This document shows, piece by piece, positions 3,689 through 32,712 of a stretch of 64,000 nucleotides of DNA (within the stretch, counting starts at the first letter, position 1; every line of letters starts with the position of its first letter). The stretch covers positions 1,426,001-1,490,000 of the forward strand of contig NZ_JACBZO010000001.1 in assembly GCF_013409005.1 (NCBI RefSeq), read 5' to 3'. This DNA comes from Demequina lutea. Lineage in GTDB: Bacteria > Actinomycetota > Actinomycetes > Actinomycetales > Demequinaceae. The notes under the pieces are model-generated. The model ran no database searches. It saw only the letters and a list, made by a program, of their open reading frames with translations, and was not told the origin of the DNA. Made by a program: the position numbers and the translations under genes.

Positions 3689-5499
3689 CAGTCCTCCTTC
3701 GTTTCGGCACGCGGCGCGTCGCGGAGCGCGGCGTCGACGAGTGCGACCGCATCGGGCTGGAGCACGAAGTGGTCGGCCTCGGCCTCGATGATTCCGAATG
3801 TACCCAGCAATGGCCCGCGTATGGGCATCGGCTTGTCGGAGAGGTTCGCGTGGACCGTGACCGGCCCCGTCATCGTGAGTTGCCTTGGCGAAGCCTCAGA
3901 AACGGAAACGGGGTAGCGTCGCCACGCGTCTGGGCCGAGCGTGAGGGCGCGGGCGGACACCACCCTCTCGCACCACGCTTCTATCGCGGCACGGGCGGGA
4001 AGCAGATCGTCGCCGAAGGCACGCAGTTGTGAATTCGCCAACGTCTCTGGGTCTTGAGGATCGGGAACGACGACATCGCCGCCATACAGGTCTTCCCAGC
4101 CGTGGCCGCCAAACTCGCTCATCCGACCTTCCGACACGGCCGAACCGAGGGGCTCGGCGTGGTCGGTGAAAAACTGGAACGGCCGAGTCTCGCCGTACTC
4201 CTCACCCATGAAGAGCATCGGCGTGAAGGGGCTCAGCAGGATGAGAGCGAGCGACGCCGCCTGCGCGCCGGGCGAGAGCGTCGCTGAGGGCCGGTCGCCC
4301 AATGCGCGGTTCCCCACTTGGTCGTGATTCGAGGCGCATACGACGAACCGGCGCCTGTCGACCGAGGCGGGAACGGGTGCGCCCCAAAGTCTGCCGCGAA
4401 AGGTCGATAGACCGCCGTCGTGCACGAAGACCTCGCGGTAAGCCTTATCGAGCGTTTCAATCGAACCAAAATCGACGTAGTAGCCGTGCCGCTCACCCGT
4501 GAGGTACGTGTGGAGAGCGTGGTGCACGTCATCGGCCCATTGGGCGGTCATGCCGAGCCCGGCTGCTCCGCTGGCAGTGCGCTCGCCGACGGGAGTGATG
4601 GTCGCCGGCTCGTTGAGGTCGGACTCTGCCACGAGGGATAGCGGCCGGCCAAGACGCTCGGCGAGGGCCGCCGTACGCACCGAAACCTCCGCGAGGAGGT
4701 GGACGGGGGAGTCGTCGACAAGAGCGTGCACCGCATCGAGGCGCAGTGCATCGACGTGGAAGTCCGCGAACCAGCGCAAGGCGTTGTCGATCAGAAACTC
4801 GCGCATTCCGCGGGAACCTGGCTGGTCGAGGTTGACGGCCCATCCCCACGGCGTCTCGTGGGCGCTTGTGAAGTACGGCCCGAACTGCGCGAGGTAATTC
4901 CCGTCGGGCCCCAAGTGGTTGTACACGACGTCGAGGCACACGCCGATGCCCTCGCCATGTGCCGAGTCGACGAAGCGTTGCAGGGCGGCGGGGCCCCCAT
5001 AGGCCTCGTGCACCGCGTAGAGCGCGACCCCGTCGTAGCCCCAACCCCTGTTCCCCGGGAAGGCCGCGACGGGCATCAGCTCGATCATCTCGATGCCGCG
5101 ACGCGCCAGGTCGTGCAAACGGTCCCTCGTGATGGCGTCAAGGGTGCCCTCGGGGGTGAATGTTCCGATATGGAGCTCGTAGGTGACTGCTCCACGGGCG
5201 TCGCTCCCCGGCCAGCGACCATCGGTCCAGTCGAAGCCTTTCGCGTCAAAGGTGCGCGAGAAGCCATGGACACCGTGCGGTTGCCACGGACTGCGCGGAT
5301 CGGGAAAGGGGCCGCTTCCGTCGACCTCGAAGGCGTAGTCGGTTCCGTGCGCGAGTGTGGGGCCCTTCCACCAACCGCCGGCGCCCTTCAGCATTGTCGA
5401 TCGACCTGCGGGACCCGTGCTCGCCGCGGCGTCGCGGGACAGGCAGGTGACGGCCGAGGCGTCCGGAGCCCATACGGTGACCGGGGACTCTGCGGCCAT
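3688..5499 (-). CDS. treZ: Malto-oligosyltrehalose trehalohydrolase
   Basis: Second step of the TreY-TreZ route: hydrolyses the alpha-1,4 bond next to the terminal trehalosyl unit to free trehalose. From the ATG at 5499 the protein is 603 residues: an N-terminal beta domain typical of GH13 branching-type enzymes (starting PVTVWAPDA), then the GH13 barrel with VYNHLGPDGNYL, the nucleophile region ALRLDAVHAL, the acid/base region LVAESDLNEP and CASNHDQVGNR. The frame is open for 45 codons upstream, but the ATG that overlaps the treY stop (TGATG) fits the family N-terminus. No treX is seen in the window. Confidence 0.95.
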   Translation of the reverse strand: MAAESPVTVWAPDASAVTCLSRDAAASTGPAGRSTMLKGAGGWWKGPTLAHGTDYAFEVDGSGPFPDPRSPWQPHGVHGFSRTFDAKGFDWTDGRWPGSDARGAVTYELHIGTFTPEGTLDAITRDRLHDLARRGIEMIELMPVAAFPGNRGWGYDGVALYAVHEAYGGPAALQRFVDSAHGEGIGVCLDVVYNHLGPDGNYLAQFGPYFTSAHETPWGWAVNLDQPGSRGMREFLIDNALRWFADFHVDALRLDAVHALVDDSPVHLLAEVSVRTAALAERLGRPLSLVAESDLNEPATITPVGERTASGAAGLGMTAQWADDVHHALHTYLTGERHGYYVDFGSIETLDKAYREVFVHDGGLSTFRGRLWGAPVPASVDRRRFVVCASNHDQVGNRALGDRPSATLSPGAQAASLALILLSPFTPMLFMGEEYGETRPFQFFTDHAEPLGSAVSEGRMSEFGGHGWEDLYGGDVVVPDPQDPETLANSQLRAFGDDLLPARAAIEAWCERVVSARALTLGPDAWRRYPVSVSEASPRQLTMTGPVTVHANLSDKPMPIRGPLLGTFGIIEAEADHFVLQPDAVALVDAALRDAPRAETKED

Positions 5500-19275: not shown

Positions 19276-19923
19276 CTAGTTCAGGGCGGTCTCTTCTGAG
19301 CGCATCGCGATGCCGCGCCACTGCTTGAGCCTGTTGAAGCACCGTTCGACGACGTTGCGACCCCGGTAGCGCTCCTGCTGGAGAGGTCCGAAGTCGATCG
19401 GCCGGCCCGGCTTACGGCGGCGGTGTGCGATCTGGTCGTCGCGCTCGGGGATGGTTGCCGCGATCCCGTGCTGGCGCAGCCAGGCCCGGTTCGCCTTCGA
19501 CGGGTAGCCCTTGTCGGCCAGCACCCGACCCGGTCGAGTTCGCGGTCGACCCTGGGGCCGCGGCACCGAGATGTCATCGAGCACCGTGGCCATCATGATG
19601 GTGTCGTTGATATTGCCGCCGGCGATCACCACCGACAGCGCTCGGCCCCGCCCATCCGCGACGAGGTGGACCTTCGTGATCAAACCCCCGCGCGACCGGC
19701 CAATTCGATAGCGCCCCCTGTGTGGCGCGGAAGCGTGGCGCCGTGCTGGTGGACGCGCGCAATGGTCGAGTCGACCGAGACAACCCAGTCGAGCTCCCCG
19801 CTCTCGTCGGCCAGCGCCTGCACCCGCTCGAGCACCCGCGCCCACACGCCGTCCTTTGCCCACCGGTCGAAGTTCTTATAGATCGTGTTCCACTTCCCGA
19901 ACCGCTCTGGCACGTCCCGAGCG
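19276..19923 (-). mobile_element. IS5-family (IS427-like) element, truncated at its 5' side
   Basis: Remnant of an insertion sequence carrying two overlapping transposase frames. The transposase-start side is missing: homology begins at RDVPERFGKWNTIYKNF and the bases upstream (above about 19,923) no longer encode the expected tryptophan-containing N-terminal part. It abuts the stop codon of the MFS gene within about 12 bp. With one end lost, inverted repeats and target duplication cannot be identified. It marks the left edge of the accessory island. Confidence 0.8.
19276..19923 (-). pseudogene. IS5-family transposase, N-terminus deleted
   Basis: First frame (about 19,923 to 19,680) encodes DRWAKDGVWARVLERVQ and DWVVSVDSTIARVHQHG with the first catalytic Asp; the second frame (to 19,276) encodes IGRSRGGLITKVHLVADG, the second Asp region VLADKGYPSKANRAW and the final Glu region RNVVERCFNRLKQWRGIAMR. 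The switch lies near a run of five G residues on the minus strand (19,718-19,714), which fits the programmed -1 frameshift known in the IS427 group but could be a mutation. The missing N-terminus makes it inactive in any case. Confidence 0.8.
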
Positions 19924-19934
19924 CGCCGGCCGGG

Positions 19935-21401
19935 CTACGCGGCTGGCGCCAGCGCCGTCGGCGGGTCGTCGGGGAACAGGTGCGAGATGCCTGCTCGACT
20001 CCGGTGAGCGGGGCCGGATGTCGAGAGCCAGGCGAGCGCGCCGATGAGGAGCGCGAGACCGACGACGAGCCACCAGTAGGAACGAGCCGCCCCGACGTAG
20101 GCCGTGCCGACCGCGGTGCTCGCGCCAAGGCCGGTGAGGGCCCCGGCGAGTGCGACGCCGAGCGACGTCCCGACCTGGCGTGCGGTCGACGTGGTCGCGG
20201 CGGCGGAACCGGACTGCGATCGCGGCATCCCGCTGACCGACATCGTCGTGACTGGGGCGTTCAGGAACCCCTGGCCGATGCCGTAGAGGAGGAACACTGT
20301 GAGCAGCAGCAGGTCCGATGAGGACGGCGCAAGCCACAGTGCCAGCACCAAGGTCGCGACGAGCACGGCCGACGCGCTGATGAGGAGGGGAGTCCGAGTG
20401 CCGCGGGCTCCGACGAGGTGGCCGGAGATGTTGGAGCAGATGAGCTGGCCGATGGCCATCGGGAGCAGCTTTAGGCCAGCCTCGAACGGCGTGAAGTGCC
20501 GCACCTCCTGCAGGTAGAGCGTCATGAGAAAGATGAAGCCGCTGTAGGCCGCGAATCCCGCGATGGCGGTGGCGAGCGCGGCCGAGAAGGAGATGCTTCG
20601 GAAGAAGCGGACGTCGATGAGCGGCTCAGGGCGGCGCAGCTCGTAGGGGATGAACGCGGCGATCGCCGTGGCCGATGTGGTGAAGAGCGCGATGGTGACC
20701 GGGTTGCCCCACCCGAGGTGTGGACCCTCGATGAGTCCGGCGATGAGGCAGCCGAGCATCGCCATGATGAGCCCCTGGCCGACGAGGTCCACCCGCCGAC
20801 GATGCCTCGAGCGCGATTCGGGGACGAAGAGCGCCGTGAGGAGGATCGCCGCGACGCCGATCGGCACGTTGATCCAGAAGATGCCGCGCCAGCCGACCGT
20901 GTCGGTGAGTAGGCCGCCGACGATCGGTCCGATCGCCATCGAGATTCCGCTCACCGCCGACCAGGCGCCGACAGCGCGGGCTCGCGGTGCGGGGTCGTCG
21001 AAGGTGTGCGTGATGATCGACATCGCGACCGGATTGAGCATCGATCCCCCGATTGCCTGGACGGCGCGGAAGGTGATGAGCCACTCGGTCGTGGTGGCGA
21101 AGCTGCACAGCAGCGATCCGACGGTGAAGACGACGAGGCCGAGCTGGAAGGTCGTCCGCCTCCCGATGCGATCCGCCGTCGAGCCGGAGAGGATGAGCAG
21201 ACAGGCGAGCACCAAGGTGTAGGCGTCGACCGTCCACTGCAGCGCCGAGACCGAGGAGCCGAACTCGGCCCGGATCGAGGGCAGCGCGACGTTGACCGCC
21301 ATCGTGTCCATGGTCACGATGAGCAGGCTCATGCAGCAGATCGCGAGGATGAGGAAGCGGTGCCGGTAGCGAGCAGGTAGCGCGCCGACGTGTGTCGTCA
21401 T
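19935..21401 (-). CDS. MFS drug/metabolite exporter, DHA2 (EmrB/QacA) type
   Basis: A 488-residue protein with about 14 hydrophobic segments, the mark of the DHA2 subfamily of proton-driven exporters. Family motifs are visible: LQWTVDAYTLVLACLLILSG in the first helices, then DRIGRRTTFQLGLVVF (motif A), and GVSxxGPxxGG-like ISMAIGPIVGGLLTDTVGWR (motif C). It starts 34 bp after the stop of the asparaginase-like gene and so is the second gene of that operon. It may export a product or a toxic analogue of the substrate handled by the island. The stop is followed directly by the IS5 remnant. Confidence 0.9.
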   Translation of the reverse strand: MTTHVGALPARYRHRFLILAICCMSLLIVTMDTMAVNVALPSIRAEFGSSVSALQWTVDAYTLVLACLLILSGSTADRIGRRTTFQLGLVVFTVGSLLCSFATTTEWLITFRAVQAIGGSMLNPVAMSIITHTFDDPAPRARAVGAWSAVSGISMAIGPIVGGLLTDTVGWRGIFWINVPIGVAAILLTALFVPESRSRHRRRVDLVGQGLIMAMLGCLIAGLIEGPHLGWGNPVTIALFTTSATAIAAFIPYELRRPEPLIDVRFFRSISFSAALATAIAGFAAYSGFIFLMTLYLQEVRHFTPFEAGLKLLPMAIGQLICSNISGHLVGARGTRTPLLISASAVLVATLVLALWLAPSSSDLLLLTVFLLYGIGQGFLNAPVTTMSVSGMPRSQSGSAAATTSTARQVGTSLGVALAGALTGLGASTAVGTAYVGAARSYWWLVVGLALLIGALAWLSTSGPAHRSRAGISHLFPDDPPTALAPAA

Positions 21402-21434: not shown

Positions 21435-23138
21435 TCAGTGTGTGAGGAAGATCTTCTGATACGCGGCCACTGTGGCGCTCGTCGCGGCACGCTCCTCCGA
21501 CGTCGGGTGCGCGGGATCCGCCGCGACCGGGAGGGCGCCGAGCTTCATCATGCTGGCCATGAGGAGCAGCCGCGCCTTCACCGCGGTGAGGTTCGATCCC
21601 GCGATCGTGAACGGCGTCGGGTCCGCGAAGCCCTCGGGCGCACCCCGTCCCACGCGTGCGACGGGGATCCCGCTGAAGACCGCGCGCTCGAGCAGGGCTT
21701 CGGAGGCCTTCGAGGGCAGGCGGCCGTACGGGACGAGGCCCTCGACGACGATTCCGCCGAGCCGGCCGAGGCCGAGCTTCTGGTCGAGCACCGCCTGAAG
21801 GATCGGCAGGTCGTCGGGAGCGAGGCCGATCGCCTCGTCGAAGTACCCGCCCTCCTTGACGATCGAGACGGACGGGATGGCGTCCTCGGTGATCCGGCCG
21901 TCCGCATCCTTGACCACGACCTCCACCAGCCGGATCCCCTCTGCGGTCATGGTCGCCGCCTGGACCATCTTCGGCAGCCGGGTGACGTTCACCTCCGACA
22001 GGTGGGTGTGCTTGTAGGCCGGAAGGTAGGTGAGGTGGATCGCGCCGGCATGGGTGGTCTGACCGATGATGCCGCCGTGACCCCCCGTCGCGCGGTAGTT
22101 GCCCGGTCGGGCATCCGACTTATACACCTCGCGGGCCGCGAAGTACTGTTGCTCCTCGATCACCACGACCCCGCAGCGGTTCTTCCCGTCGTCGCCGGCC
22201 CAGCGCCCGGACTGGATGAAGGCGATCGAGTCGACGATGTTCTTCGGCCCGTCGTTGCTGATGAGGCCCTGCGGCCGCTGGGCGGCGTTGCCGCAGATCG
22301 GGATCGCCGTGTCGATCAGGAGGCTGAACCAGTAGGCGGTCTCCTCGACCTGCGGGCTGCCCTGCGTCCAGATGAGGCCGTCGTACCGGCCGCTGCTCGC
22401 GATCGCCTGCGCATCGTTCGTGATCTTCGCGAGCGCGGGCCGGCCGGGGACGGTGCCGAGGTGCACCGGCTTGTACCCGTTGAAGTCCGCGCCGCTCCGC
22501 TCCGGCGGGATGTCGCCCTCGCCCACGTCGGTGCGCTCGGCGGCCGGGAGGCCCTTGCGGTAGCCGCCGGGCGGGGACACGCGGTAGAAGTCGACGGTGG
22601 CGCGCGAGGAGATGGGACTGGCGGTGCCGCCGTCCTCGATGCCGAGTCGATCGATCTCCTCGAAGCTTCGGGAACCGTCGGGGAAGAATCCCTGCCGCGA
22701 CGCCGTCTCCGGCCCGAACGGGACCGCCATCTCCTCCTCCCAGGCGCTGCCGTCGGCCTGGGTCGCCATGTAGGGCAGCGGGTAGAGGCCGTCCTCCGGG
22801 TGGAGTTCGATGGCGTAGACGGGCTTGTCGCCCTCCGAGGCGGGGGTGGGCCGGACGACGCCGTCCGCTCCCAGATAGCCGTCGGGGTCACCATAAAGCT
22901 CCGCCGCGTCGCGTTCGAGCGGATGCGCCGAGAACTGCTCGACGTAGACGGTCGCGGGTGCGGCCAGTCGCTGCGCACGAAGCGCATCGAACCGGAGCGC
23001 GTTCCCGCCCGCATCGGTGAGCAGCGGCAGGCCGTGCTTCGTGCGCGCCTTGTTTGACGTGACGAGCGGCGGCGTGTTCTGGATGGTGGCGGTCGGACCG
23101 CTGAGGTGGGCAATCCGGACCTTGTGCGACTCGGTCAT
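21435..23138 (-). CDS. Asparaginase-like amidohydrolase with large insertion and altered second motif
   Basis: A 567-residue protein of the asparaginase/glutaminase fold. The first motif is near the N-terminus (SGPTATIQ; Thr16 is the likely nucleophile). The second motif, THGTDT in asparaginases, reads TQGSPQVEE (residues 258-266): Ser-Pro stands where the catalytic Thr-Asp is expected. NDGPKNIVDSIA and AAREVYKSDA (Lys340) match the later conserved stretches. The distance from first to second motif is about 245 residues instead of about 80, so roughly 170 residues are inserted. The ATG at 23,138 has GAAGGAG upstream. Substrate unknown; an amide of an unusual kind is likely. Confidence 0.7.
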   Translation of the reverse strand: MTESHKVRIAHLSGPTATIQNTPPLVTSNKARTKHGLPLLTDAGGNALRFDALRAQRLAAPATVYVEQFSAHPLERDAAELYGDPDGYLGADGVVRPTPASEGDKPVYAIELHPEDGLYPLPYMATQADGSAWEEEMAVPFGPETASRQGFFPDGSRSFEEIDRLGIEDGGTASPISSRATVDFYRVSPPGGYRKGLPAAERTDVGEGDIPPERSGADFNGYKPVHLGTVPGRPALAKITNDAQAIASSGRYDGLIWTQGSPQVEETAYWFSLLIDTAIPICGNAAQRPQGLISNDGPKNIVDSIAFIQSGRWAGDDGKNRCGVVVIEEQQYFAAREVYKSDARPGNYRATGGHGGIIGQTTHAGAIHLTYLPAYKHTHLSEVNVTRLPKMVQAATMTAEGIRLVEVVVKDADGRITEDAIPSVSIVKEGGYFDEAIGLAPDDLPILQAVLDQKLGLGRLGGIVVEGLVPYGRLPSKASEALLERAVFSGIPVARVGRGAPEGFADPTPFTIAGSNLTAVKARLLLMASMMKLGALPVAADPAHPTSEERAATSATVAAYQKIFLTH

Positions 23139-23218
23139 GCGGAGCTCCTTCGAGTTCATCGGCCGGATGCGACCACCGCCCACGTTCGTCCGCCTCGATT
23201 TCCGCCCAGTGACGCCGT

Positions 23219-23261
23219 GATTGCCGTCCCGTAACTTGTGTCCACGCCTTTGACGGTTACA
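23219..23261 (-). promoter_or_regulatory. Operator/promoter site B of the island (before the asparaginase-like gene)
   Basis: Read on the minus strand this 43-bp stretch begins TGTAACCGTCAA and continues with CACAAGTTAC and ACGGCAATC. It matches site A (23,925-23,967) at about 34 of 43 positions, in opposite orientation, and each lies about 80 bp before the first structural gene. GTAAC and GTTAC form an interrupted dyad 20 bp apart. The site overlaps the stop codon of the CGNR-type gene. Confidence 0.75.
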
Positions 23262-23925
23262 GCCTCGGCATCCGGTGTGCCTTCTCGGCGGCCGCCACTG
23301 CTTGCCGAAGCCGATAGGCGCGCACGTTCTCCCGCCCGTGGCACTGGATGCTGCAGAACCGCTTGGTGCCGCTGCGCGTGTCGTCGACGAACAGGCGATC
23401 GCACCGCAGTGCCGCGCAGCATCGGATGTACTGCGTCGAGTTCGACGACACCCAGGACGCGAGGGCCGCGCAGCAGGCGACCTGCCATCCCTGCACGGCC
23501 GGGACCGAGTGGTCCTGGTAGTGGAGCGAGTACGGCGGCTTCTCGGACAGGTGCAGGGCCGAGGGGTGCTCGGCGAGCATCGTGTTGACCTTGGGGATCG
23601 CGGTCGGGATGTCGTCGAGCGCGAGATCGAGCAGCACGTCGTGGAGCCGATTCGCCATGACCTTCAGCTCGTCCGCCTGTTCCGGCAGGAACGCCGTCTG
23701 CTTGCGGTAGAAGCGCTCGCAGGTCTCGTTCGCGATGCTTGCGCACTCGGCGGGATCTTCCGGCGCAGTGTAGCGGGCACCGAACGACCAGCCGTCGGCG
23801 AGCCGGTTCGTGAGCGCGATGGCGGCGAACACGAGCTGATCGCGATGCGATCCGCTCGGCCTCGTCATCATGCCCTTGAGCGCGGTGGCCATCGGCCCAG
23901 CGTACGGATCGCGCATTTCCGGCAT
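23257..23925 (-). CDS. CGNR/ABATE-type zinc-finger regulator
   Basis: Up to 222 residues. The C-terminal part matches the CGNR zinc finger: two Cys in IRCCAALRC, then LFVDDTRSGTKRFCS, then QCHGRENVRAYR, where CHGR replaces the usual CGNR. The N-terminal part resembles the ABATE domain of putative stress-response transcription regulators (FAAIALTNRLADGW). The first ATG (23,925) touches operator site A; ATGs at 23,916 or 23,892 are equally plausible starts, with no clear ribosome site. It lies between the two operons of the island and is the obvious candidate to bind sites A and B (inference). Confidence 0.75.
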   Translation of the reverse strand: MPEMRDPYAGPMATALKGMMTRPSGSHRDQLVFAAIALTNRLADGWSFGARYTAPEDPAECASIANETCERFYRKQTAFLPEQADELKVMANRLHDVLLDLALDDIPTAIPKVNTMLAEHPSALHLSEKPPYSLHYQDHSVPAVQGWQVACCAALASWVSSNSTQYIRCCAALRCDRLFVDDTRSGTKRFCSIQCHGRENVRAYRLRQAVAAAEKAHRMPRL

Positions 23926-23967
23926 GTAACCGTCAAGAGCGCCGCGACAAGTTACCGGTCGGCAACC
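23925..23967 (+). promoter_or_regulatory. Operator/promoter site A of the island (before the ABC operon)
   Basis: Plus-strand copy of the same 43-bp element as site B: TGTAACCGTCAA, a variable centre, GACAAGTTAC, then TCGGCAACC. It ends 79 bp before the ATG of the ABC ATPase; site B ends 80 bp before its gene. Equal spacing and orientation relative to the two downstream genes argue for a shared regulator or promoter type. I could not match it to the GlnR box. Confidence 0.75.
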
Positions 23968-24046
23968 CCGCCGAAATCGTCGCGGAACTGCGGGGGTCGA
24001 CAGTGGACCTCATCCTCGCTTTGTCCATCGACCCCAGGAGCAGTTC

Positions 24047-24868
24047 ATGACGATCTCAGCATCCACCGCCCTGAAGAGCGGACGCGCAGAACTGAAGATC
24101 GAGGGCGTCACGCGCGAGTTCGTGACGAAGTCCTCAAAGACGCTCGCGCTCAGCGACAGCTCCATCACCGTCGAGCCCGGTGAGTTCCTGTCGATCATCG
24201 GCCCGTCGGGATGCGGCAAGTCGACGCTGTTCAACATCGTCGCCGGCTTGGACATGCCGACTACGGGCGACATCCGGATCAACGGCGAGAGCATCGTCGG
24301 CGAGCAGGGCCACGTCGGCTACATGCTCCAGAAGGACCTGCTGCTGCCGTGGCGGAGCGTGCTCAACAACATCATCATCGGCATGGAAGTCAGCGGGATG
24401 CCGAAGAAGCGGGCACGCGAGCTGGCGATGCCGTTCCTCGAGGCGTACGGGCTGAAGGAGTTCGCGAAGCACCGCCCGGACCAGCTCTCCGGCGGCATGC
24501 GACAGCGGGCTGCTCTGCTCCGGACCATTCTCTTCAACCGCGACGTCATCCTGCTCGACGAGCCATTCGGCAAGCTGGACGCGCAGACCCGGGCGACGAT
24601 GCAGGAGTGGCTGCTCGACGTCTGGGATGACTTCAAGAAGACGGTCGTCTTCGTCACCCACGACATCGACGAGGCCGTCTACCTCTCGGATCGCGTCGTC
24701 GTGATGGCCCCGCGTCCGGGACGGGTGATCGCGGACATCCCGATCGCCCTGGACCGGCCCAGGAAGCCGGCGATCGTCACGAGCGATGAGTTCATCGCGT
24801 ACAAGAACCGGATCTTCTCCCTTCTGCACACGAGCCTCGTTCCGACCGCCGAAAGGACCGCAGAATGA
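24047..24868 (+). CDS. NitT/TauT-family ABC transporter ATP-binding protein
   Basis: ATPase subunit (273 residues) of an importer of the nitrate/sulfonate/taurine class. Walker A GPSGCGKST, signature LSGGMRQRAAL, Walker B VILLDEPFGKLD and the switch His in VTHDIDEAV are all present. ATG start preceded by CAGGAG. It is the first gene of the island's plus-strand operon and its stop overlaps the permease start (ATGA). The class imports small organic sulfonates, pyrimidine precursors, nitrate and related molecules; the downstream RutB-like enzyme points to a ureido or amide compound. Confidence 0.93.
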   Translation: MTISASTALKSGRAELKIEGVTREFVTKSSKTLALSDSSITVEPGEFLSIIGPSGCGKSTLFNIVAGLDMPTTGDIRINGESIVGEQGHVGYMLQKDLLLPWRSVLNNIIIGMEVSGMPKKRARELAMPFLEAYGLKEFAKHRPDQLSGGMRQRAALLRTILFNRDVILLDEPFGKLDAQTRATMQEWLLDVWDDFKKTVVFVTHDIDEAVYLSDRVVVMAPRPGRVIADIPIALDRPRKPAIVTSDEFIAYKNRIFSLLHTSLVPTAERTAE

Positions 24869-25749
24869 CAGCCCTCCCCGCACTCATCCGCCGCACCGAG
24901 GACGCATCGACGACGGCGGGACGGCTCGAGGCGCTCAACCGAATTCCACGGAGGTCGGCGCAGAGGCGCGGCGGCGCCTTGTTCCCCGCGGAGCCGGCGA
25001 GCTGGAAGATCGCGCTGACGGTCATCGGCATCGTGGTCGCGGTCTTCGTGCTCTGGGAGGTGTTCGCCGACGCCGGCATCATCTCGACCTTCTTCTGGTC
25101 GAAGCCGAGCCTCATCTGGGCCGCCTTCGTCACCCAGATGACTGCCGGCACCATGCTGGCGGACCTCTCCTTCACCGCGCTGTCGACCGTCTACGGCTTC
25201 CTCATCGGGGTCGGCGGCGGCGTGCTCATCGGGCTCTCTTTCTGGTGGTCGAGCTTCTACGCCCGAACGGCCGAGCCGATCTTCATCGCCCTCGAGGCGA
25301 TGCCGAAGCTCGCGCTCGCACCGATCATCGTGCTCGTCCTGGGTCTCGGCATCGGATCGAAGATGGCGATGGCCGCGTCGATCGTCATCGTGATCCAGAT
25401 CCTCAACACCCACGCGGCGGTCCGTCGGGTGGACCGTGATGAGCAGACCCTGCTCTACTCGCTCGGCGCGAGCCGCTTCCAGGTGTTCAGCAAGGTCGTC
25501 GTCCCGTCGACCCTGCCGTCGATCATCAGCAGCCTGCGCGTGTCGATCGGCCTCTCGCTCACCGGCGCGATCGTCGGCGAGTACATCGGCAGCCAGCACG
25601 GTCTCGGCAAGATGATCCAGGTCGCGGGTTCGACCTTCGACATCGCGTCGATCTGGGTCGGCGTCTTCACGCTGGCGATCTTCGCCTTCGTCCTCTATGC
25701 GCTGCTCTCGCTCGTTGAGCGACTGCTGCTGCGCCTCGTCCACGGCTGA
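24865..25749 (+). CDS. NitT/TauT-family ABC transporter permease
   Basis: Membrane subunit of 294 residues with about six hydrophobic segments after a 45-residue N-terminal tail. The ATPase-contact (EAA) loop is visible around TLLYSLGASRFQVFSKVVVP, and the C-terminal GEYIGSQHGLGKMI is typical of SsuC/TauC/RutG-neighbour permeases. It overlaps the ATPase gene by four bases and is followed 51 bp later by the binding-protein gene, forming one transcription unit. Confidence 0.93.
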   Translation: MTALPALIRRTEDASTTAGRLEALNRIPRRSAQRRGGALFPAEPASWKIALTVIGIVVAVFVLWEVFADAGIISTFFWSKPSLIWAAFVTQMTAGTMLADLSFTALSTVYGFLIGVGGGVLIGLSFWWSSFYARTAEPIFIALEAMPKLALAPIIVLVLGLGIGSKMAMAASIVIVIQILNTHAAVRRVDRDEQTLLYSLGASRFQVFSKVVVPSTLPSIISSLRVSIGLSLTGAIVGEYIGSQHGLGKMIQVAGSTFDIASIWVGVFTLAIFAFVLYALLSLVERLLLRLVHG

Positions 25750-25800
25750 GTGCGCAACGTCCCACCCACAGCACCACCCTTCCCACCCCTAGGAGAACAC

Positions 25801-26853
25801 ATGAAGAACAAGCTGATCCCGCTCGCGGCTCTCGCCGCCGCCTTCGCCCTTGCCGGCTGCTCGGCACCAGCCAAGGCGGCGTCCTCGCCCCCAGCCAAGG
25901 CGGCGTCCTCGCCCCCAGCCAGCGGACAGGCCATCGAGCACAACGGGGCGATCGTGATCGCCGAGCCGGTGCACAACCTCGGCTACCTGCCGCTGTACGC
26001 CGCGATCGATCAGGGCTATTTCACGGATGCCGGGCTCGACGTGCAGACCTCGACCCTCGGGGGCGGCGCCCATGTCAACGCTCTGCTCAGCGGCGATGTG
26101 TGGGCCTTCATCGGAGGCCTCGAGTCGGCGGCCATCGCCAACGCGAAGGGCGCCGACCTGATCGGCATCGCCGGCGTCGTCGACCGGGCGAACGTGTACT
26201 GGACGGCCGCCAAGGGCGTGAAGATCGATCCGAACGACCTCGCCGGATCCCTGAAGGGACTCCGCATCGCCGCGAGCCGGCACGCCGGCTCGCCCGAGAT
26301 CGACACCCTCTACGAACTGAAGAAGCTCGGTCTGGACCCCGCCAAGGACGTCACCATCGTCAACAACGACAGCGGCACCGAACTCGCCCTGATCCAATCG
26401 GGTCAGGCTGACATCGCCGTGACGAGCGAGCCGAACATCAGCAAGGGCATCAGCGGGGGTCTGTGGAGCGAGCCGATCATGAACCTCCCGAAGGAGCTGG
26501 GCAAGTTCGCGTACTCCGACATCGTAGTGTCGAAGGCCACCGTCGCCAAGGAGCCCCACACCGTGCAAGCGTTCGTCGACGCCCTGAACAAGGGTATGCA
26601 CGACGTGCTCACCGACCGGAGCCTCGCCACGCGGATCGCCAAGAAGGAGTTCCCGACGATGAGCGATGCCGATATCAAGGCGACCCTCGACCGCAGCTAC
26701 AACGACGGTCTCTGGGACGGCATCGCGATCGACGCGAGCGCGGTGAAGATCGATCTGACCGTCGCTCGTGATGCCGGCCTGCTGCAGGACTCGGCGCATC
26801 CCGCGACCTTCGACTCGATCGTCGACACCGAGTTCTTCACCAACACCAAGTAG
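25801..26853 (+). CDS. ABC transporter substrate-binding lipoprotein (NitT/TauT type)
   Basis: A 350-residue lipoprotein: signal peptide with lipobox LAGCS (Cys about residue 20), a Pro/Ala/Ser linker, then a periplasmic-binding fold of the SsuA/TauA/THI5-like type (GYLPLYAAIDQGYFTDAGLDV is the classic first stretch). The ATG at 25,801 follows AGGAGAAC. The linker holds a 24-bp in-frame tandem duplication. It sits between the permease and the amidohydrolase genes. The ligand is likely a small amide or ureide, since the next gene encodes a hydrolase for such bonds (inference). Confidence 0.92.
   Translation: MKNKLIPLAALAAAFALAGCSAPAKAASSPPAKAASSPPASGQAIEHNGAIVIAEPVHNLGYLPLYAAIDQGYFTDAGLDVQTSTLGGGAHVNALLSGDVWAFIGGLESAAIANAKGADLIGIAGVVDRANVYWTAAKGVKIDPNDLAGSLKGLRIAASRHAGSPEIDTLYELKKLGLDPAKDVTIVNNDSGTELALIQSGQADIAVTSEPNISKGISGGLWSEPIMNLPKELGKFAYSDIVVSKATVAKEPHTVQAFVDALNKGMHDVLTDRSLATRIAKKEFPTMSDADIKATLDRSYNDGLWDGIAIDASAVKIDLTVARDAGLLQDSAHPATFDSIVDTEFFTNTK
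25867..25920 (+). repeat. 24-bp in-frame tandem duplication in the lipoprotein linker
   Basis: Two identical 24-bp units (25,867-25,890 and 25,891-25,914) plus six bases of a third encode PAKAASSP twice. The copies are identical at the DNA level, so the duplication is recent. It lengthens the tether between the lipid anchor and the binding domain. Confidence 0.95.
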
Positions 26854-26872
26854 CCAGCGAAGGAGCACAACC

Positions 26873-27523
26873 ATGTCCGACTTTCCGTACCGCTACGACC
26901 CGGCGCACACGGCGCTGATCATCGTCGACGTGCAGAACGATTTCTGCAGCCCGCAGGGATCGCTCGCAACGCTCGCCGACGCCGACGTCTCGGCGGCCGT
27001 CGAGATGACCCCCCGCCTCGTCCGTCTGATCGAGCACGCCCGCGCGGCGAAGCTGCCGGTCGTCTTCATTCAGACCATCCACGACGAGACGAACGACAGC
27101 CCGCAATGGCTCAACCGCCATACCGGGGAGCCGGACGGCTCGGCGCGGGCCGGCATCACCTGCCGCACCGGTTCGTGGGGCGCCGAGTTCTACGAGGTGG
27201 CGCCGCTGCCCGGCGAGATCGTCGTGAACAAGTACCGCTATTCGGCGTTCGCCGGGACCAACCTCCAGATCGTCCTGACGACGCTCGGGATCCGGTCGCT
27301 GCTCTTCACGGGAGTCGCGACCGAGGTCTGCGTGGAGTCGAGCCTGCGGGACGGGCTGTTCGCGGAGTACTACGTCTCGCTCGTCGAGGACTGCGCGGCG
27401 ACGTACTCGCAGGACGCACACGACGCGTCGGTCCGAGGGATCGCGAAGAACTTCGGCACGGTGGTGACGAGCGACTTCCTCGCCGATCTGTGGGTTGAGG
27501 AGTCGGCGCTGGCGACCGCCTAG
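26873..27523 (+). CDS. RutB-like isochorismatase-superfamily amidohydrolase
   Basis: Cysteine hydrolase of 216 residues. The catalytic triad is visible: Asp19 in IIVDVQNDF, Lys120 in VVNKYRYSAF and Cys153 in GVATEVCVESSLRDG. The stretch after the Cys (ESSLRDGLFAEYYVSLVEDC) is closest to RutB, the ureidoacrylate amidohydrolase, within a superfamily that also holds biuret, triuret and N-carbamoylsarcosine hydrolases and nicotinamidase. The ATG at 26,873 follows GAAGGAG. Last gene of the ABC operon. Likely cleaves a carbamoyl or amide bond of the imported compound, releasing ammonia; the exact substrate is open. Confidence 0.88.
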   Translation: MSDFPYRYDPAHTALIIVDVQNDFCSPQGSLATLADADVSAAVEMTPRLVRLIEHARAAKLPVVFIQTIHDETNDSPQWLNRHTGEPDGSARAGITCRTGSWGAEFYEVAPLPGEIVVNKYRYSAFAGTNLQIVLTTLGIRSLLFTGVATEVCVESSLRDGLFAEYYVSLVEDCAATYSQDAHDASVRGIAKNFGTVVTSDFLADLWVEESALATA

Positions 27524-27928: not shown

Positions 27929-27989
27929 CACGAGTCCGCTGGTCGAGGTCACCTTCGACGGCGTCACCGACTGAGGGCGGCGGGCCGGC

Positions 27990-28599
27990 CTAGAACATGT
28001 CGGGCGACGGCGTCGGCGCGTAGCGGATGATGACGTCCGCGTGGCGGTTGAACCGGTATCCGGTGCCGCGCACGGTCCGCACGATGTCCTCGTACACGCC
28101 GAGCTTGGAGCGCAGCCGGCGCACGTGCACGTCGATGGTGCGTTCGTTCGGCGTCTCGTCGTCGTCGGAGTCGCCCCAGAGCGTCGCGATGATCTCGCTG
28201 CGGTCGATCGTGCGCCCCTCGCGGAGCACGAAGAACTGCAGCAGCTCGAACTCCTTTTAGGTCAGCGGCGCGGTCTCGCCGTCGAGCAGGACCCGCTTGC
28301 GCGAGATGTCGATGACGACGCCCCCCGAGGCTCGGGCGCGGTCGCGGTTGGCGCGCTCTGGCGGTGCTTCGCGAGGGCCGCCGGGTCCAGCAGGGCGAGG
28401 CGCACGACGTCGACATCGCGTCCGCCGGCGCCCGCCGGGGCCAGCCGACGGCGACGTAGAGCGCGAATCCGCGGGGCTCCATGCCCTCGGGAACGGCGCG
28501 CAGGCGCCGAGGCCCCTCGGGAGCCGGGGCCAGCGGGGGCGCCGAGGGCGCGACGGTCAGAGAAGTGGAACGAACGGGAGAAAGAGTGGCCAGGGACAT
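27990..28599 (-). pseudogene. Winged-helix (OmpR/PhoB-type DNA-binding) regulator, decayed
   Basis: Starts with MSLATLSPVRSTSL at 28,599 and reads in frame to RGFALYV; sequence then jumps, in another frame, to LAPAGAGGRDVDVVRLAL, so an internal stretch is deleted with a frame change near 28,450. Later it reads RKRVLLDGETAPLT, a TAA stop (28,257-28,259 region), then KEFELLQFFVLREGRT and the winged-helix core TIDVHVRRLRSKLGVYE. The stop probably arose from a Tyr codon. Intact homologues that I recall belong to Microbacteriaceae-type actinobacteria. It carries no receiver domain. Confidence 0.8.
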
Positions 28600-28924
28600 G
28601 GTGTCGAATCCTTGATCGGAGGCGAGATCCGCGGGATCGTCCCGCGCGGATGTCGCGGAGTCATCGAGATTCGGGGTGTCGCCGGGAAGGTCCGGCATGC
28701 GGGAGTTCACGAGAGGAACTCGGACGGGAGATCCGTCAGACACACATTCGACAGCTGGAGACCGCACGCACCGACATCATCATGTCGGCGTGCGCATCGT
28801 GGCGCCAGCGTGCACGGTCCATTCGCTTCGATGTCGCCCCGGCAGCGTTCCGCCCGTGTCACCGCCACGTCCGCGTTCCGGGTTCGCGGTGTCGACTCGA
28901 CGTGTCACGGCCGTGGCGTCATCA

Positions 28925-30322: not shown

Positions 30323-30649
30323 ATGCCAGCACCGAGGAAGTATCCGCAGGAGCTCAGGGAGCGTTCCGTGCGGCTTGTGAGAGAAGCGATGTCGCAGGAG
30401 ACGTCGCTGTCGATGAACGCGGCCGTGGTCCGTGTCGGTCATCGGGTCGGAGTGAACTCAGACACGCTGCGTGGCTGGGTGAAACAGGCCCGGATCAATG
30501 CCGGAGAGGTTGCCGGTGTCACGACGACGGACGCGGCCACGATCAAGGCGTTGGAGCGAGAAGTGCGAGAACTTAAACGCGCGAACGAGATCTTGCTTGC
30601 CGCGTCTTCTTTCTTCGCGCGGGAGCTCGACCCGCGACTTCCGTTCTAG
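30323..30649 (+). CDS. IS3-family transposase OrfA
   Basis: A 108-residue DNA-binding protein with a helix-turn-helix (ELRERSVRLVREAM; NSDTLRGWVKQARIN) and a C-terminal leucine-zipper-like helix (IKALEREVRELKRANEILL). The ATG at 30,323 is chosen; an in-frame start at 30,314 adds three residues. Its TAG overlaps the first base of OrfB, and the OrfAB fusion needed for transposition would form by -1 frameshifting before the stop. Confidence 0.92.
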   Translation: MPAPRKYPQELRERSVRLVREAMSQETSLSMNAAVVRVGHRVGVNSDTLRGWVKQARINAGEVAGVTTTDAATIKALEREVRELKRANEILLAASSFFARELDPRLPF

Positions 30650-31587
30650 TGGCCTTTATCGATGAGCATCGCTCACGGTTCGGGGTCGAGCCAATCTGCC
30701 GGGTGCTCACCGAGCACGGGTGCCGGATTGCCCCGTCGGGTTACTACGCCGCCAGGAACCGTCCCGACTCGGCGCGTTCAGTGCGTGACCGGGAAGTTGC
30801 CTCCTTGATCGAGGCGGTGTTCTGGGACCGCAACCGCGGCCGAGGCATCAGCGGCCCCCGTAAGGTGTGGCGCTTGCTGCACCGCGACGGGGTCGAGGTC
30901 GCTCGGTGCACTGTGGAACGCCTGATGCGTGTTCAGGGACTGCGGGGAACGCGTCGTGGCAAGCAGTTCATCACCACGAGACCAGATGCTGCGGCGACGC
31001 GTCCGCCGGATCACGTTCAACGTAACTTCCGTGCCGAGCGTCCCAACGAGTTGTGGGTCGTGGACTTCACCTACGTGCCGACCTGGTCGGGTATGGCGTT
31101 CACCGCGTTCGTCACCGACGTGTTCTCGCGCCGGATCGTCGGGTGGCGGACGATGTCGAGAATGCCCACTGACTTGCCCCTTGATGCGCTTGAGATGGCG
31201 TTATGGGTGCGAGAGCGAGCCGGTCAGGACGTCGCCGGCGTCATCCAGCATTCGGACGCGGGAGCTCAATACACCGCGCTGCGCTATTCGGAACGGCTCG
31301 CAGACGTGGGAGCGATCGCGTCGATCGGGACCGTCGGGGACTCCTACGACAACGCCCTCGCAGAGACCGTCGTCGGGCTCTACAAAACCGAGTGCGTGAA
31401 AATCGACGGCCCGTTCCGCACCGCTGACGAGCTTGAATACGCAACCCTGTCCTGGGTGCACTGGTTCAATGAAAACCGGCTGCACTCCTCGATCGGATAC
31501 CTCACCCCGATCGAGATGGAAGACCTGTACTACCGTGAGAACACGACCCAGGAGCAGCCGCTCCTGGGAGAACTCACCCTCCACTAA
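30649..31587 (+). CDS. IS3-family transposase OrfB (DDE catalytic subunit)
   Basis: A 312-residue integrase-type catalytic protein. The D,D(35)E triad is visible: Asp in WVVDFTYVPTW, Asp in IQHSDAGAQYTA and Glu in DSYDNALAETVVGLYK. The N-terminal HTH_21-like segment (GRGISGPRKVWRLLHRDG) is also present. It begins with GTG overlapping the OrfA stop and in vivo is probably made as an OrfAB fusion. No inactivating change is seen, so the element may be active. Confidence 0.94.
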   Translation: MAFIDEHRSRFGVEPICRVLTEHGCRIAPSGYYAARNRPDSARSVRDREVASLIEAVFWDRNRGRGISGPRKVWRLLHRDGVEVARCTVERLMRVQGLRGTRRGKQFITTRPDAAATRPPDHVQRNFRAERPNELWVVDFTYVPTWSGMAFTAFVTDVFSRRIVGWRTMSRMPTDLPLDALEMALWVRERAGQDVAGVIQHSDAGAQYTALRYSERLADVGAIASIGTVGDSYDNALAETVVGLYKTECVKIDGPFRTADELEYATLSWVHWFNENRLHSSIGYLTPIEMEDLYYRENTTQEQPLLGELTLH

Positions 31588-32712
31588 ACCCGGGGCGATT
31601 CATCTCGGGGGGTGAGGAATCCTAGGCTTTTGCGGGGTCTGTGGTTGAGTTCTTCGGCGATGGCGGTCAGGTAGGGCTGGTGGTCGGTGATGGTGTCGCC
31701 CTTGGGTAGGTACTCGCGGATCAGACCGTTCGTGTTTTCGTTGGTGCCTCTGTCCCAGGGTGAGTGGGGGTGGGCGAAGAACACGGGCATCGAGGTTGCC
31801 AGGGTGAACGCGGCGTGCTTGGCCATTTCCGAGCCCTGATCCCACGTCAAGGTATTGCGCATCATTCCTGGCAGTTCGTTCGCGTGGTCGATCAGAACAT
31901 CAGCCAAAGCGGTGGAGTCCTTGCCCTGCGGCAGCGCGAGGATCAACGTGTACCTGGTGGTGCGCTCAACGAGGGTTGCGGCAACGGTCTTGCCCTGGGC
32001 GCCGACGATCAAGTCGCCCTCCCAGTGCCCGGGAACCCTGGGGTCGGTGAGATCCTCGCGGGCATCAATGCTGGCCATTCCCACGATCGGGGCACCACGC
32101 TCACCCAGCGGGCGGGGCCGGCGCCTGCGGGTTCGTTTGGAGCGTAGCAACACCGCGTGCTTGGCAAGCTCGCTCTTGGGTAGGGCGTAGATGAACCGGT
32201 AGATCGCCTCGTACGACACGGTCCTGCCCTTTGCGGGGGGTGAGGCTGTCATCAGACCAACAGTGTCGTCCTCGACCTCCCGACGCAACCGGCCCGCGAC
32301 CTGCCTCGGGGTGCGTGACTGACCCAAATCCGCCAAGACCCGTGCCCGCAACACCTCATCGGATGCGACCTCGCCCACCCGCGGGCGACGACGCCGTCGC
32401 TACGCAGCACAATCCGCATGCACCAGGCGATACCCGCGAGTTTTGAGCCAGTTGCGACGCACCTCCCGCGACACCACCGACGGCGAACGATCAATATGCG
32501 CCGCGATCACCCGAATCGACCACCCCGCCTTCAACCCCTGCGCGATCTCCACCCTGCCCGTCACCGTCAACATCCTGCGCACCAGCAACCTCCGTCGAAA
32601 CCCGCACCGTTGCTACGACGCTATGACACCGCCGTGACGCTTTAGGAGTTTTGGGTAGAATTGACGGGGATCGTCGATAGCGGAGAACCGCCATGATGAT
32701 CCCCGGGTTGCG

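Follow-up and report, generated by a model that had tools for sequence, protein, structure and literature searches.

The regulator considered here is related to Jann_2411 (PDB 3h0n), an ABATE/CGNR protein described as a dimer that carries a putative DNA-binding site; the dimer has been proposed to bind DNA in a ligand-dependent manner (PMC2954205). Among the papers listed in searches of the open-licence literature, none was seen to name an operator for the CGNR family or to describe the DNA target, ligand or mode of action of CGNR proteins. In actinomycetes, the box recognised by GlnR has the form gTnAc-n6-GaAAc-n6-GtnAC-n6-GAAAc (PMC10704036), and boxes of MtrA are reported to be nearly identical to it (PMC6277429). 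NnaR, whose own palindrome is ctCAC-N16-GTGag, is reported to bind cooperatively with GlnR; it is an orphan response regulator that contains a part resembling uroporphyrinogen-III synthase (PMC6277429, PMC10704036).

The window, i.e. the whole stretch of 64,000 nucleotides of the Demequina lutea genome that was analysed, contains a CGNR gene situated between a minus-strand operon (asparaginase-like, MFS) and a plus-strand operon (ABC, isochorismatase-type), each preceded by one of two matching sites. Judged from its sequence, each site is probably (at a probability of about 0.7) a composite operator of this two-operon cluster for uptake and amide hydrolysis, read by both the CGNR protein and GlnR. 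Like Jann_2411, the window protein has a zf-CGNR domain; unlike the accessible text of the account of Jann_2411 (PMC2954205), which names no DNA target, the present analysis predicts an operator. Like the published GlnR box, the GlnR-type element consists of a-b-a-b half-sites in 11-bp steps (38 bp); it scores 14–16/18 at eight cluster sites, and the host encodes GlnR. It differs from the published box in that its first half-site is also one arm of the predicted CGNR palindrome. The arrangement resembles that of GlnR and NnaR at nitrate/nitrite genes, where a pathway-regulator palindrome lies at similar spacing from a GlnR box, but the regulator here is a CGNR zinc finger and the predicted elements overlap. 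The genes of the cluster are as follows (window coordinates).

19935..21401, minus strand: MFS efflux-type transporter, EmrB subfamily; downstream of the asparaginase-like gene on the same strand.
21435..23138, minus strand: asparaginase-like protein, 567 aa; PF00710 at residues 237–343, E 2.7e-10.
23257..23892, minus strand: CGNR zinc-finger regulator; zf-CGNR PF11706, E 1.2e-10; start MATALKGMM.
24047..24868, plus strand: ABC transporter ATPase (domain match).
24865..25749, plus strand: ABC transporter permease (domain match).
25750..26853, plus strand: NMT1-type substrate-binding protein (domain match).
26867..27523, plus strand: isochorismatase-type hydrolase; the best NCBIfam match is RutB, far below the RutB cut-off.

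The cluster is flanked by an IS5-type transposase (19276–19863, minus strand) and by two integrase-core ORFs (30649–31587, plus strand; 31584–32378, minus strand), a setting fitting a mobile or acquired island. Just past the isochorismatase gene, the segment 28050–28280 (minus strand) matches an OmpR-type Trans_reg_C domain and contains an in-frame TAA, so that a disrupted regulator gene seems to lie here; for the ORF at 27964–28767, no match was obtained in a Pfam scan.

The assignment of the regulator to the CGNR proteins is based on several matches. The window protein scores 41.4 bits against PF11706 versus a cut-off of 24, the four cysteines of its C-terminal zf-CGNR treble clef are conserved, and zf-CGNR is matched by all five members of the CGNR orthologue set (A2). 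The 3h0n profile (E 3.5e-29) covers the C-terminal two thirds of the protein. The N-terminal ABATE domain (PF07336) is below detection in the window protein; it is matched by one of the five orthologues at E 2.8e-4 and, above the cut-off, by the distant relatives L006 and L192. The start at 23892 is likelier than one at 23925, since two close relatives begin MVL[KR]GMMTRPSGSHRD in the orthologue alignment. Structure prediction of the CGNR protein from two sequences reached a pLDDT of 42.7, too poor to use. In a class-wide sample of 394 genomes, 238 contained a match to the window protein at E <= 0.001.

The two 43-mers, 23219–23261 (minus strand) and 23925–23967 (plus strand), had been claimed in the preliminary description to agree at about 34 positions, to point towards the two operons at nearly equal distances from their start codons, and to share a core too rare to be due to chance. 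All of this was borne out. The 43-mers are identical at 34 of 43 positions, face the asparaginase-like/MFS operon and the ABC operon, and end 80 bp (ATG 23138, minus strand) and 79 bp (ATG 24047, plus strand) before the respective start codons. The core reads GTAACCGTCAA-N10-ACAAGTTAC, is 30 bp long with a spacer of exactly 10 in both sites, and was expected 0.00 times in 100 dinucleotide shuffles of the window. The conserved signal runs past the 43-mers, to about 23198 in site 1 and 23988 in site 2, and the stop codon of the CGNR gene falls inside site 1. The following elements were distinguished.

23198..23235, minus strand: GlnR-type box 1, GTTAC-n6-GCAAT-n6-GTCAC-n6-GAAAT, 15/18; shares GTTAC (23231–23235) with operator 1.
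23231..23260, minus strand: CGNR operator 1 (predicted), GTAACCGTCAA-N10-ACAAGTTAC; faces the asparaginase-like/MFS operon; its left arm holds the CGNR stop codon.
23926..23955, plus strand: CGNR operator 2 (predicted); faces the ABC operon; 33 bp upstream of the likely CGNR start.
23951..23988, plus strand: GlnR-type box 2, GTTAC-n6-GCAAC-n6-GAAAT-n6-GGAAC, 14/18; shares GTTAC (23951–23955) with operator 2.
24000..24004, plus strand: A and T columns (composite-site positions 75 and 79), invariant in 8/8 sites.

Both predicted CGNR operators are supported by conservation in related clusters and by the palindrome at other CGNR genes. A -10 region is a faint possibility for the invariant A and T at composite positions 75 and 79; a scan of 23100–24080 revealed no canonical sigma-70 promoter.

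The exact core is present in the host genome (3,104,152 bases) in two copies only, both in this window, and is absent from the other 46 genomes of the family (1/47 counting the host). The slightly looser pattern GTAACCGTCWA-N10-ACAAGTTAC at up to three mismatches also gave only these two copies in the whole host genome. A dispersed repeat unrelated to the adjacent genes, the outcome that the preliminary description had named as speaking against regulatory sites, is therefore ruled out by the two copies in the genome and the lack of an exact copy in the other 46 family genomes, and the copy number, two at up to three mismatches, also speaks against an IS end. More generally, the repeat might be a promoter element or a transposon end, given that its reverse strand reads TTGACGGTTAC and that IS-type genes lie nearby. 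This reading, already disfavoured, is hardly credible: the scan found no promoter match, and a sequence with only two genome copies is conserved in six genomes with differing gene orders.

The search for related clusters started from the asparaginase-like protein as a query, the best 80 of 103 relatives being kept as loci. Many of the relatives among these best 80 of 103 belong to Alphaproteobacteria and have varied neighbours. One locus, L096 from a Microbacteriaceae MAG (genome G440), contains a CGNR gene at 48% identity and the whole ABC operon; in the interval from the CGNR stop to the ABC start it carries GTAACCGTCTA-N10-ACAAGTTAC. In the 79 loci with an asparaginase-like gene and without a CGNR gene, the left element had no exact copy and five one-mismatch hits. 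CGNR matches at E <= 1e-15 were present in 13 of 398 genomes of the family of L096. The four closest of these 13 besides L096's own genome (G563, G640, G723 and G626) also possess the ABC/SBP/isochorismatase operon; contig ends cut the CGNR gene in G723. The left element was absent at up to one mismatch from the short loci of the remaining eight, and no cluster was present within 19 kb of one of them, G490.

A pattern search at up to three mismatches detected the site in G563 (two sites), G440, G640 and G723, and no site in G626, G490 and G131; a 29-bp version was found in G626 by reading its upstream region. The motif search near homologous genes that had been proposed earlier therefore gave the site in all six cluster-bearing genomes found (8 sites). 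A start codon lies 78–92 bp downstream of each of the seven 30-bp sites. The place of the CGNR gene varies: it separates the operons in the window genome (G000) and G563, precedes the ABC genes in G440, and comes last, after the ABC genes, in G640, G723 and G626. The site occurs both where the CGNR gene adjoins it and where this gene stands at the end, about 5 kb away. In a sample of 396 genomes from the order, the host of the window was the only one with such a CGNR gene at E <= 1e-22; the occurrence of the cluster is therefore sporadic. In a related cluster of Salinibacterium (L039), a FadR-type GntR/FCD gene (4369–5034, minus strand) replaces the CGNR gene. The CGNR-cluster site is absent there at up to three mismatches, and a GntR-like palindrome, TATAGATTATAGA (5141), is located upstream of the homologous ABC genes; the best GlnR-box score upstream of these genes is 12, which is not convincing.

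The second element of the composite site matches the GlnR box. Box 1 is the best of 127,926 window positions, and only four positions reach 14/18, two of them being these sites. In the alignment of all eight sites, GTTAC at position 26 is followed by GNAAY at 37, G..AY at 48 and GNAAY at 59. The score for half-sites b1, a2 and b2 is 10–12/14 at each of the eight cluster sites. It sums to 89 in register, to 74, 68, 61 and 52 at shifts of -11, -22, +11 and +22, and to at most 44 at all other shifts between -25 and +30. Among 868 occurrences of GTNAC in the same sequences, ten reach at least 10/14, the eight sites included. The register between the repeat and the GlnR-type box is fixed in seven of the eight sites.

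GlnR is encoded in the host genome, as indicated by matches to PF21695 (GlnR_1st; E 8e-38) together with Trans_reg_C, to 8hih (E 8.1e-81) and to 4o1h ('GlnR'; E 3.6e-25). In 10 of 24 amtB/glnA-family loci, the gene is closely preceded by a box scoring 13–18/18 (15–18 in four of them); the host has one of 15/18 before one amtB and one of 14/18 before glnA. The weaker of these boxes rest on their position, since at window background a 4-kb locus would yield a score of 13/18 about 0.4 times. No convincing box was seen in the other 14 of the 24 loci. The second regulator may be other than GlnR, given the reported near identity of MtrA boxes (PMC6277429).

GlnR, or MtrA, might also read the whole site alone, with the upstream GTAAC as an extra a-type half-site and the CGNR protein uninvolved. 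GTAAC does fit gTnAC, and the amtB promoter of S. coelicolor has three GlnR boxes (PMC5826061). However, the conserved YGTCWA that follows GTAAC is not explained by GlnR, and there is no b-site 11 bp further on. No copy of the left element TGTAACYGTCWA with up to one mismatch occurs in any of the 24 amtB/glnA loci, so this element is not part of the GlnR boxes there; moreover, CGNR genes elsewhere carry the palindrome without a GlnR box. This reading is improbable, and it was rejected as a sufficient explanation because it leaves YGTCWA and the link with CGNR genes unaccounted for.

The palindrome at CGNR genes outside the cluster was surveyed in 42 loci: 29 from a class-wide search, 8 from the family of L096, and 5 plasmid loci, a sixth plasmid record being left out as an apparent duplicate. 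The CGNR match reaches the N-terminal part, at 27–36% identity, in 22 of the 42; the other 20 loci are the rest. A loose scan with GTAAC-N15-24-GTTAC revealed a 30-bp palindrome beside the CGNR gene in 7 of the 29 loci. The refined pattern GTAACYGTC-N12-GACRGTTAC was present at 14/18 or better upstream of 20 of the 22 distant CGNR genes, a count that is not blind for the 29 loci, as the mirrored consensus and the 12-bp spacer were fixed after the loose scan had shown the seven palindromes. The two low scorers, L012 and L014, have 12 and 13/18. Spacers of 4–20 other than 12 gave 0 or 1 of 22; when the arms were permuted 500 times, the mean was 0.05 and the maximum 5 of the 22 loci. When palindromes were counted without the consensus (9-bp arms, at least 8 matches), a spacer of 12 was seen in 10 of 22 loci, 14 in 10, 16 in 8 and 10 in 7. 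That a spacer of 12 is not singled out in this way is probably in part due to the same palindromes being read further in or out. The distant palindromes are mostly located 65–74 bp before the residue-26 codon, about 30 bp before the likely CGNR start.

Among the other 20 CGNR loci, L024 and L196 reach 14, L031 and L127 reach 13, and 16 score only 10–12; the motif thus marks a branch of CGNR proteins. The plasmid loci were fetched after the prediction had been set down: L192 (16), L193 (15) and L194 (14) fit it and L195 (10) does not, while L196, a fourth plasmid locus, reaches its 14/18 with changed letters. In L196, a Streptomyces plasmid locus whose CGNR protein belongs to another branch, the near-perfect palindrome GTAGGCGTC-N12-GACACCTAC is located at 2737–2766, 27 bp before the annotated start; it may be a distinct operator built on the same plan. 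In L004–L022, L192 and L194, the branch palindrome is followed about 48 bp downstream by another 30-mer of its kind (for example GTAACTGGT...GACAGTCAC, scores 13–15). In 19 of the 22 loci this 30-mer extends across the likely CGNR start codon; it was excluded from the counts and is perhaps a tandem operator for autorepression.

None of L004–L032 (2–3.6 kb each) contained a match to the ABC-cluster proteins other than CGNR. A divergent ORF, one that recurs in 15 of the other loci, occurs in at least 14 of the 22 distant loci; the five that were read look alike, and the two that were tested are methyltransferases. The palindrome accompanies CGNR genes in two unrelated settings, the ABC cluster and divergent methyltransferase-like loci. 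The right arm in the cluster (ACAAGTTAC, AGGAGTTAC, GAGCGTTAC) resembles the family palindrome mainly in GTTAC. The CGNR signal therefore resides largely in the left arm, and GTTAC could serve GlnR alone.

The GlnR-type score is at most 7/14 at 21 CGNR-only sites (L012 left out), and the GlnR-type box was seen with the ABC cluster only. These scores bear on the reading that the CGNR protein alone recognises the whole 63-bp site, the 11-bp array being extra CGNR half-sites. The array does accompany all eight cluster copies of the repeat, but it fits the published GlnR consensus, resembles the glnA/amtB boxes of the same genomes and is missing from the 21 CGNR-only sites. We consider this reading very improbable, and the 11-bp array led to its rejection as sufficient.

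The preliminary description had assigned both sites to one shared regulator, probably the CGNR protein. The CGNR part of this proposal is well supported as regards a predicted binder: the site tracks the CGNR gene in six genomes and three gene orders, and the same arm with the same 12-bp inner spacer recurs in the palindrome upstream of 20 of the 22 distant CGNR genes. The notion of a single regulator proved incomplete: the 43-bp site ends, in its 3' third, with the first part of the GlnR-type box, which extends 21 bp beyond it. At least two regulators rather than one are implied by a nitrogen box that begins inside the 43-bp site.

Both elements, their register, their conservation and the tie between palindrome and CGNR gene are read directly from the sequences; from these we infer that the proteins bind, that CGNR dimerises on the DNA and responds to a ligand, and further the sign of its action and its competition with GlnR. 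The 30-bp inverted repeat is predicted, as the most likely case, to bind the CGNR protein. In the mechanism proposed, the ABATE/CGNR protein would bind this repeat (GTAACYGTC-N12-right arm ending GTTAC), probably as a dimer, and the same GTTAC would serve as the first half-site of the 38-bp GlnR box (a1-b1-a2-b2). GlnR would activate both operons through this box when nitrogen is scarce. Without ligand, the CGNR protein would occupy the repeat and hinder GlnR; its N-terminal domain would sense the substrate of the cluster, and substrate binding would release the protein. The outcome would be expression only under nitrogen shortage and with the substrate present. The shared GTTAC suggests competition between the two proteins, and it is this sharing that makes the wiring in which CGNR hinders GlnR the most likely one.

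The main rival to this wiring is that the CGNR protein is a co-activator, binding beside GlnR and helping it as NnaR does at nitrate genes. The predicted CGNR arm is indeed located upstream of the GlnR box at a fixed register in seven of eight sites, and the NnaR palindrome likewise occurs near GlnR boxes (PMC6277429, PMC10704036). The palindrome here, however, shares GTTAC with the GlnR a1 half-site, and the position of the CGNR site at methyltransferase-type loci, about 30 bp before the likely CGNR start, suits a repressor better. A co-activator role thus appears rather unlikely, and competition between CGNR and GlnR is retained as the preferred wiring.

Operators and GlnR boxes as such are elements of known kinds. 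What is new to us is that an operator can be predicted for a CGNR branch and that this operator overlaps a GlnR box. In the wider proposal, which we put forward tentatively, GTNACYGTC-N12-GACRGTNAC would be the operator of a widespread actinobacterial ABATE/CGNR branch and would be fused, via a common GTTAC, with a GlnR box in one nitrogen-scavenging cluster to form a compact AND gate. The overlap would represent a simple, checkable design in which the sensing of a substrate is combined with nitrogen control at the global level. Since CGNR proteins are widespread among actinobacteria, a predicted target sequence is of value: the 30-bp operator makes this CGNR branch testable and opens a way to its targets, for instance the divergent methyltransferase-like genes.
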